Shown here one piece after another: positions 23,664-26,423 of a stretch of 27,940 bases of DNA. The notes under the pieces were generated by a model. It searched no databases. It had not been told where the DNA came from and saw only the letters and a program-made list of their open reading frames with translations. The stretch's first letter is position 1. Each line of letters begins with the position of its first letter. This DNA comes from a virus. The stretch covers positions 1-27,940 of the IMG/VR virus record IMGVR_UViG_3300047666_000477. One strand, given 5' to 3'. The translations under genes and the position numbers were made by a program.

Positions 23664-24154
23664 AGCACCTTTCCCGTGTTAAAGCCTGCCATGATAGCGT
23701 CTGCCCGTGCCTTCATATCCGCATCAGGTGCAACGCGCGTGACTGTCTGCGCAGGCAGCTTAGGCAACGGGTTGCGCCTAATTTCAGCCTTGCCCCGTGT
23801 CTCCTTTAAGATTGCCAAGATATGTCCAGGGTTGGGCCGCTTGCTTGGGTTGCCGTCTTGGAACTTGCGCAGTGCGTAAATAATCTGCGGTTGATGCCAA
23901 TCCTCCAATCGGTCAGCCCATTCGGCCAGCGCTGCCGCGTCAATCTCGTCACCTTCCCGCGCATCCCAATAGCCACCATTCGCCATGAACACCTTTACAT
24001 CAAAAGCAATCTTCTGTCGGTGTGCGTCTAGCTGTTCCGGCGAAAGCGACCGCGCGTGCTGTGGCGTCACTGTTGGAAGTGTTGCCGTTAGAATTGCGGG
24101 TAGTTGTGCGTTTCTGTCCAAAATACCAGTCCTCCTTGATTGTCTGCCAGCCAT
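23660..24154 (-). CDS. Replication-organiser-like protein, in-frame overlap with upstream gene
   Basis: 164 residues from ATG 24154, or 153 from TTG 24121. The latter is supported by a perfect AAGGAGG (24131-24137) eight bases ahead, the former only by AAGAG. Core: YALRKFQDGNPSKRPNPGHI followed by LAILKETRGKAE; the earlier AEWADRLEDWHQPQIIYALR fits phage helicase-loader or replication-initiator proteins of alphaproteobacterial prophages ('l..w...l......l..Al..w......+rP.PgdI...l.e.'). About 120-155 bases overlap the 3' end of the gene at 24000-24347 in a different frame. Confidence 0.7.
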   Translation of the reverse strand: MAGRQSRRTGILDRNAQLPAILTATLPTVTPQHARSLSPEQLDAHRQKIAFDVKVFMANGGYWDAREGDEIDAAALAEWADRLEDWHQPQIIYALRKFQDGNPSKRPNPGHILAILKETRGKAEIRRNPLPKLPAQTVTRVAPDADMKARADAIMAGFNTGKVL

Positions 24155-24347
24155 GCTCTTGAGCCATGTCTAGCGCTTCTGTGGCGTCACCGCCGTTCTC
24201 ATTGATGCTGCGCAGTGTCTTTGCAATCATCAGCGCCCCACGCTCTGACAGTGGCGCTCGTTTGTGCTTCTTGCGGTATGCGATGAAGCTGTCAACGGCG
24301 TCACTGTCTGCGTGGTGGCTTAGAATGTTAGCTGGGGTTTCAATCAT
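24000..24347 (-). CDS. Replication protein C-terminal-like small protein
   Basis: 115 residues. APLSERGALMIAKTLRSINE, then NGGDATEALDMAQEHGWQTI and KEDWYF form the helical C-terminal piece ('aP.t..a...ia+kL..i...GgD...aLd.a.e.gW.ti..dWy') seen at the end of phage replication initiators (lambda O / helicase-loader class). After DWYF the sequence turns low complexity and basic (TTTRNSNGNTSNSDATARAV), in the region overlapping the next gene. TGA/ATG overlap with the upstream small gene. Confidence 0.7.
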   Translation of the reverse strand: MIETPANILSHHADSDAVDSFIAYRKKHKRAPLSERGALMIAKTLRSINENGGDATEALDMAQEHGWQTIKEDWYFGQKRTTTRNSNGNTSNSDATARAVAFAGTARRTPTEDCF

Positions 24348-24507
24348 CCCCAGCCCCTCGTGATGCGTATCGGATCAAACTAGCCGCGTATTGCGGGTCG
24401 CTCATTAGAACCCGCGTTGCTGCCTCCGCCTTGGCCTTTGCTGCCTTGAACTTGTCGTATTCAGCCTCAGACAATGCAATCCGCATGTGTTTCCTATGTT
24501 CAGTCAT
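24340..24507 (-). CDS. Hypothetical 55-aa helical protein
   Basis: MTEHRKHMRIALSEAEYDKF, then KAAKAKAEAATRVLMSDPQY. Strongly helical with a RHH- or toxin-antitoxin-antitoxin-like size, but no specific motif. It overlaps the DGQHR gene by 8 bases and its downstream neighbour by 8 bases. The usual Shine-Dalgarno is weak (GGGGATTTTTAACA), so translation is probably coupled. Confidence 0.6.
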   Translation of the reverse strand: MTEHRKHMRIALSEAEYDKFKAAKAKAEAATRVLMSDPQYAASLIRYASRGAGDD

Positions 24508-25303
24508 TGTTAAAAATCCCCAACTCCCAAGGGTTTTTTCCTACCTTGCGAACCTTTTTCAAATCGTGGCCCGCGCTGTATGCCTTTATAAAGTTCAAAA
24601 CAATGCGATATGCTTCCAGCTTATTGCGCGGCGTCGCCGAAATTTGGCCCTCCATAAGCCAATTCCTAACGCGAATAATCATCATATCCTCTGGGCCGTA
24701 TGGCATACCAGTCACCAAAACACGGCAAAACCTTTGCAATTTAACAACTGGAATTTCGTAAAATGCAACGGCAACCGCACCGCGCACTGCGGCGTTGCCA
24801 ACTCCGCTTTTAGCCGCGCCCGTGTTTTCGGTGGCAAAGTAGATTCCGTCACTCATTTCTGCAATCTTTTCAGCCGTGGCGGTTGCTGTCATTGCCCGAA
24901 TGTCTGCGGTTTCCGCATGGCGCACCATACGCAAGATAGCAACCTGCGCAGAAATGTATTTGCTTGATTCAACCATGCCCCCAATGACAAGCGCATCGGT
25001 TAGCTTGCGGGCGCGGCCCTGATCAATTGCGGCACCGTCTACCCGCGACAAACCAGTCGCAACAAACATTTCAACAGGCTTTTTAGCTTGAACGACGGCG
25101 GATAGGCGGTGCTGCCCATCGGCCAAGATGCCGTCTTCGTAAAACGCGATGCAGTTTTGGTGCGTGTTGCGCCACGTTCCGTCCGTAATCTCGGCGGCGT
25201 ATACGTTGACCTTGCCCCGTGAGATAGAACGGTTATTTTCATTCAGCGTTTCAAGCCAAATTCCAGCCATAGACGGCGTTACGTTTACTCGTGTCATTTC
25301 CAT
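24500..25303 (-). CDS. DGQHR-motif protein, ParB/sulfiredoxin-like fold
   Basis: 267 residues from MEMTRVNVTPSMAGIWLETL. DGQHRL (about 85-90 in the 25303 start) follows TDGTWRNTHQNCIAFYEDG; the full pattern 'y..eM..G.W......i.f...G.l.DGQHRl.A......pv.m.v..gl.......iD.GraR...d.l' is the common phage ParB-like family annotated for plasmid partition relatives. The start at 25303 is chosen because AAGGAC lies upstream and the family begins here; a longer version to 25390 reads through the promoter and dyad. Role in early control or DNA metabolism is inferred. Confidence 0.75.
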   Translation of the reverse strand: MEMTRVNVTPSMAGIWLETLNENNRSISRGKVNVYAAEITDGTWRNTHQNCIAFYEDGILADGQHRLSAVVQAKKPVEMFVATGLSRVDGAAIDQGRARKLTDALVIGGMVESSKYISAQVAILRMVRHAETADIRAMTATATAEKIAEMSDGIYFATENTGAAKSGVGNAAVRGAVAVAFYEIPVVKLQRFCRVLVTGMPYGPEDMMIIRVRNWLMEGQISATPRNKLEAYRIVLNFIKAYSAGHDLKKVRKVGKNPWELGIFNND

Positions 25304-25339
25304 GTTATAAGTCCTTATGGTTTGCGTGGTTGCATGACC

Positions 25340-25368
25340 ATAAAACATCAATGCCGTACCCGTGTCAA
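25340..25368 (-). promoter_or_regulatory. Strong leftward early promoter
   Basis: TTGACA (25363-25368 on the complement), an exact 17-base spacer and TTTTAT (25340-25345). This is the best sigma-70-type promoter in the window. Expected start near 25333, about 30 bases before the DGQHR start codon. It overlaps the 30-bp dyad described separately. Confidence 0.65.
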
Positions 25369-25380
25369 CAGGTGCGGCAT
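25351..25380. promoter_or_regulatory. 30-bp dyad over the early promoter, possible operator or rightward terminator
   Basis: ATGCCGTACC and GGTGCGGCAT, the two outer arms of a 30-base near-palindrome, match at 10 positions per arm (9 exact plus one G-T), and the next pair (GT/AC) also fits. On the rightward strand it is followed by a run of T, so it can also be read as an intrinsic terminator that would stop rightward RNA antisense to the DGQHR gene. As an operator it covers the -35 box and much of the spacer of the leftward promoter. Confidence 0.55.
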
Positions 25381-25401
25381 TTTTTGTCATCAACTCTTTT
25401 G

Positions 25402-25648
25402 TTACAGTTTCCAGTGGTTAGACATAGCCCGACACCCGTTGCTGCCCCCGATATACAGAGCAACACCTAACGCCTCCTGATCTGTTTCCGTGCGATGCCG
25501 TTTGACGATGGCCAGCCGCTGCCCGCTGGGTTTTATCCAGCCCCGCGCCTTAGCGGTCCCCGATCTAGCCGGTGGGTTTGTATTCGCACTTCTCGCGCAG
25601 CCTAGTTAGGACCGGATTGCGCAGGGACGGGTGATGGCCCCAGATCAT
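25402..25648 (-). pseudogene. Frameshifted remnant of a small gene
   Basis: Leftward frame from ATG 25648 reads MIWGHHPSLRNPVLTRLREK, CEYKPTG and stops at 25565-25567. In a different frame downstream, without a start codon, WIKPSGQRLAIVKRHRTETD continues EALGVALYIGGSNGCRAMSN and stops at 25402-25404. Both pieces look coding, so the simplest explanation is one small gene broken by a frameshift near 25540-25570. A real two-gene arrangement or a chance open frame remain possible. No family recognised. Confidence 0.3.
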
Positions 25649-25682
25649 ATCTCATTGCTTAGAGTGCATAGAGCAAAACTAC

Positions 25683-25703
25683 GTCGGTTTGTTGTAAACC
25701 GTC
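25683..25703. promoter_or_regulatory. 17-bp operator-like palindrome
   Basis: CGGTTT (25685-25690) and AAACCG (25696-25701) are perfect inverted repeats with a 5-base centre, flanked by one further matched pair (G25683/C25703). It lies next to TTGACG, a possible -35 on the leftward strand (about 25701-25706), so it may be a repressor or Cro-type site, although a matching -10 box is poor. Confidence 0.4.
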
Positions 25704-25723
25704 AAAAATCAGGAGGGTTCTAG

Positions 25724-25752
25724 TTGCAATATGCCCGCTTGTGCGGTATGTT
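25724..25752 (+). promoter_or_regulatory. Candidate promoter for a rightward small RNA
   Basis: TTGCAA (25724-25729), 17-base spacer and TATGTT (25747-25752). The predicted start, about 25758-25760, coincides with the first base of the first hairpin of the candidate RNA. Each hexamer matches consensus at four of six positions. Confidence 0.4.
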
Positions 25753-25757
25753 TGCGA

Positions 25758-25834
25758 CAGATGCGCGATGACCCTTCCCAAGGTCGTGCATCTCAGGCGG
25801 CGCTTGAGGTTAGTCCCTCGCGTCGCCGCTTTTT
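25758..25834 (+). ncRNA. Candidate ~76-nt small RNA
   Basis: Hairpin 1: AGATGC (25759-25764) pairs with GCATCT (25788-25793), with GACC/GGTC inside. Hairpin 2: GCGGCG (25797-25802) pairs with CGCCGC (25824-25829), with GAGG/CCTC inside, followed by TTTTT (25830-25834). Promoter, two stable hairpins and a U-run in this order is the usual layout of a bacterial small RNA. No open frame in this piece has support. Expression is unproved; the identity of any target is unknown. Confidence 0.4.
25797..25834 (+). terminator. Rho-independent terminator (first of a tandem pair)
   Basis: Stem GCGGCG...GAGG...CCTC...CGCCGC with a loop of six, followed by TTTTT. Acts on rightward transcripts. It forms the 3' end of the candidate small RNA. 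Confidence 0.65.
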
Positions 25835-25862
25835 ACACTGTAGACAATTTTCTAAGCAAAGG

Positions 25863-25896
25863 CAACCCCCAGCGTTAATCTGCTGGGGGTTGTTTG
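25863..25896 (+). terminator. Second terminator, 11-bp perfect stem, probably bidirectional
   Basis: CAACCCCCAGC (25863-25873) and GCTGGGGGTTG (25882-25892) pair exactly around an 8-base loop, with TTTGTT on the rightward side. On the leftward strand the stem follows the stop of the HTH gene and is trailed only by CCTTTGCTT, so it may end both rightward RNA and the operon from 27226. Confidence 0.6.
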
Positions 25897-26100
25897 TTAT
25901 ACGGGGTCCAACGCTTTTCGTTTCAATCTCCGGTTAGAATACACCCGCTCAAACACACCGTCATCAGCAAGCTGGCGCATAAATAAACGCACGTTGTAAA
26001 CAGGAAACCCGTGGATCACCGCAATGTCCTCAACGCCTAATCCCTGAGCAAAGCACTCAAGAGCCTTGATGCGTTCTGCCTTGTCTAAATATCGGGTCAT
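25897..26100 (-). CDS. Small helix-turn-helix protein
   Basis: 67 residues. RIKALECFAQGLGVEDIAVI, then HGFPVYNVRLFMRQLADDGV is a typical helix-turn-helix ('A.e.ia..hgi...nvr..l..L...g.' pattern), followed by a basic C-terminus (SNRRLKRKAL). It overlaps the nuclease gene by ATGA and is the last gene of its operon before the hairpin. A regulator or a phage DNA-binding partner. Confidence 0.6.
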   Translation of the reverse strand: MTRYLDKAERIKALECFAQGLGVEDIAVIHGFPVYNVRLFMRQLADDGVFERVYSNRRLKRKALDPV

Positions 26101-26423
26101 GTGTCACCACCTTGCCCGCGAAACTGCACTGGCGCGTCAAACCCGTCGCGGATCAGTTTGCACCACACCTCGGCCTCCTCAATATCGCAGAGAATGACGT
26201 GTTGCCCCGTCCATTGCGGAATGAACTTCTTCTGGTACTTCGTCAGCGTCGCCTTGGGTCCGTTCTTAACCTCCACGATGTAGTTGCGGCCCCGATAGCC
26301 CGCTATGCAATCCCCTGGCTTGTCTGTCGGCTCTACGTTGAAGCCATACGCCCGAAGGATTGCGAATATCTCCGGCTCGTTTTCGTCGCGGCGCGCTTTC
26401 TGGGGTGCTTTCCATTTAGCCAT
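26097..26423 (-). CDS. PD-(D/E)XK nuclease (VRR-NUC / Hjr-like)
   Basis: 108 residues. Conserved-looking residues: E15/E17 in RRDENEPEIF, G37-D38 in KPGDCIAGYRGR and E51-V52-K53 in YIVEVKNG, followed by the helix TLTKYQKKFIPQW and HVILCDI. Order and spacing are those of the core PD-(D/E)XK catalytic motif of VRR-NUC or archaeal-type Holliday junction resolvases. In phages such enzymes cut branched replication and recombination DNA. Starts with GGAGGAA 10 bases upstream. Confidence 0.8.
   Translation of the reverse strand: MAKWKAPQKARRDENEPEIFAILRAYGFNVEPTDKPGDCIAGYRGRNYIVEVKNGPKATLTKYQKKFIPQWTGQHVILCDIEEAEVWCKLIRDGFDAPVQFRGQGGDT

Follow-up and report, generated by a model that had tools for sequence, protein, structure and literature searches.

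The window analysed here, an IMG/VR virus record of 27,940 bases (IMGVR_UViG_3300047666_000477), is a roseophage fragment whose relatives are phages of marine Rhodobacteraceae, including Octadecabacter Antarctic DB virus 2 (81% DNA identity across the nuclease gene), the Sulfitobacter phages phiGT1 and pCB2047-C, and several metagenomic contigs. The genes around the locus are all read leftward, in the order nuclease, helix-turn-helix-like (HTH-like) protein, gap, PHROG 5931 protein, O-like protein, ERF recombinase and C5 methylase. The gap between the HTH-like and PHROG 5931 genes comprises ~590 bp without genes and lies beside the replication and recombination genes (O-like, ERF, C5 methylase) that follow downstream. 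Phages infecting many hosts encode distant relatives of the PHROG 5931 protein, with identities <60%. In pCB2047-C the gap after the nuclease gene is absent, and a search for the nuclease in bacteria led to other phage types without the gap. The features of the locus are collected in Table 1.

Table 1. Genes and predicted features at the locus, in window positions unless another record is named.
Feature	Position	Strand	Remarks
Nuclease gene	26097..26423	-	VRR-type by phiGT1 annotation; marks the locus in all relatives
HTH-like protein gene, 67 aa, upstream of gap	25897..26100	-	
Two-way terminator hairpin, 11 bp, CAACCCCCAGC/GCTGGGGGTTG	25863..25892	.	T-rich rightward side TTGTTTGTTA
Leftward promoter TTGCCT-17-TACAGT, facing the small RNA	25865-25837	-	Start predicted near 25830
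Small-RNA gene (very likely), promoter to T-tract	25724-25834	+	Unannotated; antisense to flanking genes
Small RNA, ~77 nt, two hairpins and terminator	25759..25834	+	Both ends predicted (promoter, T-tract)
Hairpin 2 with T5 tail, rightward intrinsic terminator	25797..25834	+	Hairpin to 25831; T-tract 25830-25834
Hairpin 1, AGATGC-gcg-ATGACC / loop CTTCCCAA / GGTCGT-GCATCT	25759..25793	+	
Rightward promoter TTGCAA-17-TATGTT	25724..25752	+	TTGCAA 25724-25729; TATGTT 25747-25752
GGAGGGTT block just 5' of the -35 element	25712..25719	+	Same letters in phiGT1; one exact match in window
Palindrome CGGTTT-gttgt-AAACCG, CGGTTTgttgtAAACCG	25685-25701	.	Identical in L008, absent from phiGT1
Imperfect dyad (32 bp) AATGCCGTACCCGT/ACAGGTGCGGCATT over leftward promoter	25350..25381	.	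12/14 complementary
Leftward promoter TTGACA-17-TTTTAT of the 24500-25303 gene	25340..25368	-	
PHROG 5931 protein gene, 267 aa, DGQHRLSAV motif, downstream of gap	24500..25303	-	
O-like replication protein gene	24000-24347	-	~1 kb downstream of locus
Leaders in seven relatives	L006:4845-4991, L009:4318-4462, L007:4318-4466, L010:2307-2456, L011:4318-4464, L005:4832-4979, L001:9353-9500		

The first-pass annotation had pointed out a rightward TTGCAA-17-TATGTT promoter followed by two hairpins and terminators, and all of these are seen in the sequence. Together they outline a small-RNA gene that is very likely real, because of its conservation in phiGT1, its compensatory base pairs, its folding, a predicted start placed at the foot of hairpin 1, and a further copy at 98% identity in the metagenomic contig L008. 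The predicted start (~25759) lies about 7-8 bases past the -10 element and coincides with the first base pair of hairpin 1, likewise in phiGT1, and folding z-scores reach -4.93 for the window RNA and -4.95 for its phiGT1 counterpart; the locus folds well on both strands. The GGAGGGTT block is a possible activator or UP-type site. A leader peptide at this position (TTG 25723 after GGAGGG, 15 codons) was considered and rejected: substitutions relative to phiGT1, counted by eye, fall 6/6/4 by codon position and reveal no coding constraint, and GGAGGGTT is not a used Shine-Dalgarno sequence.

A BLAST search of the gap against phages returned one roseophage match, to phiGT1 (E 0.2, 75% over 96 bases), and no gene relatives. 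The match sits in an unannotated gap directly beside the phiGT1 nuclease gene, and the doubt left by the weak E-value is settled by direct local alignment of the two gaps, which scored SW 67, whereas 1000 dinucleotide shuffles reached no more than 39. The shared block extends from GGAGGGTT over both promoter boxes, spaced by 17 bases in both phages (TTGCAA-17-TATATT in phiGT1), into the terminator. Arms aligned by hand on the structure, a procedure biased towards that structure, gave 22 alignable pairs, with 16 identical, four changed on both sides, two wobble and none broken. Compensatory changes include G-C to A-U in hairpin 1 and, in hairpin 2, G-C replaced by C-G or by U-A. In phiGT1, hairpin 1 is built alike, with a bulge of 4 nt and CGTCCAAA as its loop, and the upper stem of hairpin 2 is GATC/GATC as against GAGG/CCTC in the window. 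The rightward RNA is favoured because the two wobble pairs would be A-C on the opposite strand. The really different copies of the small RNA number two, window/L008 and phiGT1. Clear conservation with phiGT1 is absent from 25390-25700. Three iteron-like TGCAAAGT repeats lie beside the phiGT1 copy of the element, at L014:5627-5660.

Wider searches were carried out in RNA family, bacterial and viral collections. Rfam release 15 yielded nothing above the gathering cut-off over the window and two sub-threshold matches, neither on the small RNA. Under strict filters and with no positive control genome, the covariance model R1 found no convincing copy in 385 alphaproteobacterial genomes, where its lone weak match (25.9 bits) has broken hairpin pairs and looks unreal; a covariance model applied in the same manner found no copy in 397 Rhodobacteraceae-like genomes, a set picked by SAM/SAH riboswitch, in which family identity rests on one riboswitch match. 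As no convincing copy came from either bacterial set, the small RNA looks phage-borne. Run against viral contigs, the patterns GATGACCCTTCCCAAGGTC and ATCYMAGGCGGCGCTTGA recovered only the L008/L013 copy and matches with non-aligning surroundings, the pattern GGAGGGTT-N4-TTGCAA-N5-CCGCNTG gave zero matches, and CTTGATAGCACGGATAG returned only already known leaders and unrelated sequence.

Scoring all relatives for TTG-N(16-18)-TA pairs revealed a leftward promoter that faces the small RNA, TTGCCT-17-TACAGT, absent from the first-pass annotation. Its predicted start coincides with the T-tract at the small-RNA 3' end; the small RNA thus ends where the leftward RNA would begin, so that its sequence complements the initial ~75 nt of the predicted leftward leader. 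The -35 element of this promoter is supplied by the 3' arm, on the minus strand, of the two-way terminator hairpin, which is identical in L006 and L009. Homologous leftward TTGnnn-17-TAnnnT sites, with spacing always 17, occupy the same position in nine records (window, L008, L001, L005-L007, L009-L011). In phiGT1 the leftward promoter is weak or missing, the best candidate, TTGCTT-18-TAGGAA, being unconvincing, so that read-through from the nuclease gene would have to provide the antisense partner in that phage.

Seven relatives (L001, L005, L006, L007, L009, L010, L011) are without the small RNA and have instead a leftward leader of ~80 nt. The outer pairs of its hairpin change together (GAGTC/GACTT, CAGGTC/GACCTG, CCTA/TAGG), a covariation read by eye because MAFFT shifts the L007/L010 hairpin by one base, and a GCCC/GGGC hairpin lies beside the ribosome site, just ahead of the start codon. 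The genes that follow vary (DUF1376-like, methylase-like, HTH-like and other), their kinds having been judged by eye except for the DUF1376 of L005. A rightward TTGC-N19-TAY is also there in all seven, with a TTG-to-CAA distance of 23 despite differing intervening sequence, and it may represent a promoter or merely a hairpin. The HTH-like gene is upstream of the terminator in the window, and its relative in L005 (L005:4977-5171) is downstream of the L005 leader; this difference in position is gene shuffling across the control locus.

The leftward TTGACA-17-TTTTAT promoter reported under a dyad likewise proved to be in the sequence, as one of only three sites in the 27.9 kb that match at 10/12 positions or better, beneath a dyad that was equalled in 1/60 shuffles. 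The transcript starts suggested in the first-pass annotation, near 25333 for this promoter and near 25758 for the small-RNA promoter, are plausible. The dyad may be an operator or a rightward terminator, as it also scores as a terminator because a T-run comes after it in the rightward direction. The reported CGGTTT/AAACCG palindrome is present too, but is kept only in the 98% copy L008, which is weak evidence. The promoters of the locus score 8-10/12, and a promoter scanner misses them because it requires A at position 2 of the -10 element and 9/12 matches. The facing leftward promoter may matter less because the 24500-25303 gene has this promoter of its own.

Judging from the promoter-like sites, hairpins, conservation, compensatory changes and position, from which transcription, the relevant strand and the regulated target are inferred, the region is on balance probably a control locus that works through RNA and sits midway along the leftward early operon, in which the small RNA, as a cis-antisense RNA, and promoter collision would curb leftward transcription. 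The terminator hairpin after the nuclease and HTH-like genes would set these apart from the downstream genes, and the leftward promoter at its foot would restart transcription into the 24500-25303 gene and the O-like replication and recombination genes. The facing promoter would make the two-hairpin RNA, ending at the start of the leftward RNA, and this RNA would act in cis on the leftward leader, while head-on RNA polymerases would collide, such that leftward transcription is held down and entry into replication paced, comparable to the convergent pO/OOP arrangement of lambda. A broader reading, which we regard as possible but rather doubtful, is that the face-to-face promoter-like sites, which the examined members retain after the nuclease gene, mark an undescribed convergent-promoter, RNA-on-RNA control locus common to an entire group of roseophages. 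Its RNA part would be either a two-hairpin antisense RNA or a leader whose loop has a fixed TTG-to-CAA distance of 23 nt, implying modular exchange of replication-timing RNAs.

A trans-acting small RNA, which would use its single-stranded loop CUUCCCAA / CGUCCAAA on messages of the phage or the host while the leftward overlap is incidental, is an unlikely alternative. It is kept because this loop is rich in C and similar to an anti-Shine-Dalgarno loop; the RNA's own promoter and terminator, its compact two-hairpin form and the unclear leftward promoter of phiGT1 would also suit it. However, 4/30 shuffled RNAs did as well as the small RNA in its best duplex with the starts of phage genes, no host copy was found in the 385 and 397 genomes scanned, and the small RNA exactly opposes the operon start. 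Distinctly unlikely is the view that the RNA under selection is the leftward leader. It would then serve the replication operon as a structured 5' UTR, either an attenuator or an autoregulatory leader bound by a protein, and the rightward promoter-like match would have arisen as a by-product. The seven leaders with their covarying hairpin and GCCC/GGGC hairpin before the start codon, together with the leftward promoter in nine records, argue for it, whereas in the window the region stops ~450 nt short of the next start codon, whose gene has its own promoter, the wobble pairs and T-tract fit the rightward strand, and the phiGT1 leftward promoter is unconvincing.

The control locus with a small RNA proposed in the first-pass annotation is supported, as conservation in relatives, which had been named as a test, was found for the hairpins and the rightward promoter; its accompanying claims fared differently. 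A link to an origin is possible, as the O-like protein is encoded 1 kb away from a gene-free stretch that adjoins replication genes and three repeats accompany the phiGT1 copy, but tandem repeats or iterons, a consensus DnaA box and a skew turn were not found in the window, and lambda oop is considered no primer (PMC3985674). An origin of replication served by a primer or an activating transcript is highly improbable. The suggested genetic switch is not supported: both flanking genes run leftward, the promoters converge, no divergent promoters between a repressor and an opponent gene of the cI/cro type lie at the locus, and phiGT1, which carries the same element, is described as lytic and without an integrase (PMC7427195). 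The supposed coding-like pieces of a broken gene are at null level, the best codon-usage segment scoring 7.8, where shuffles have a median of 7.7 and a 95% point of 12.0, with no gene relatives by BLAST. A non-functional spacer with hairpins formed by chance and the remains of decayed genes is an extremely remote explanation, which would accommodate the unconserved 25390-25700 but is contradicted at 25712-25834 by the shuffle test, the conservation and the compensatory changes there.

Known phage and plasmid systems provide a frame for the favoured cis-antisense reading. The OOP RNA of lambda is ~77 nt long and acts via RNase III cleavage and promoter interference. Its promoter, pO, converges with pR, lowers pR transcription through the origin, and harms replication when lost (PMC3985674), and OOP and sar are both antisense RNAs (PMC12197685). 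Common to lambda pO/OOP (PMC3985674, PMC12197685) and the present locus are a short RNA with its own promoter and terminator, set against an early operon beside replication genes, and convergent promoters, here predicted. However, OOP is antisense to cII, whereas the RNA described here would be intergenic, in a leader, with no cII-like gene adjoining (the neighbours being PHROG 5931, HTH-like and nuclease genes); host and phage group also differ. With cII absent from the locus and no relation found between the sequences, the likeness, drawn by analogy, is one of mechanism, not homology. P22 sar (PMC12197685) is likewise a phage cis-antisense small RNA, as inferred here, but it blocks ant translation, and no start codon lies beneath the present RNA. 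Plasmid counter-transcript RNAs (Rfam ctRNA_pGA1, RF00236) share the plan of a hairpin antisense RNA facing a replication-gene leader, but the ctRNA_pGA1 match in the window (18.8 bits against a cut-off of 45) lies elsewhere (25336-25394, minus strand).

The homolog is the intergenic element of phiGT1 (MT584811, 34437-34574), which has the same promoter, two hairpins, terminator and neighbour gene, and differs in being unannotated, in its loop and upper stems, in the HNH nuclease gene downstream and in its unclear leftward promoter; its predicted RNA would run from about 34522 down to 34440, on the minus strand of that record. The window has every part of this phiGT1-type small RNA, namely TTGCAA-17-TATRTT, two hairpins, a T-tract and a place beside the nuclease gene. 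Literature searches covering small RNAs of roseophages and transcriptomes of Rhodobacteraceae phages turned up no small RNA described for these phages, and published descriptions of phiGT1 do not mention the gap. As phiGT1 is a cultured phage carrying the same element, the proposal is directly testable. Convergent-promoter control of the lambda kind in a phage group unrelated to lambda would suggest that RNA control of the entry into replication has evolved more than once.

Near-identical copies of GTGCGGYATKTTT (11/13) occur in the window at 25372-25384, in the leftward-promoter dyad, and at 25741-25753, in the small-RNA promoter, and represent a possible shared operator half-site.
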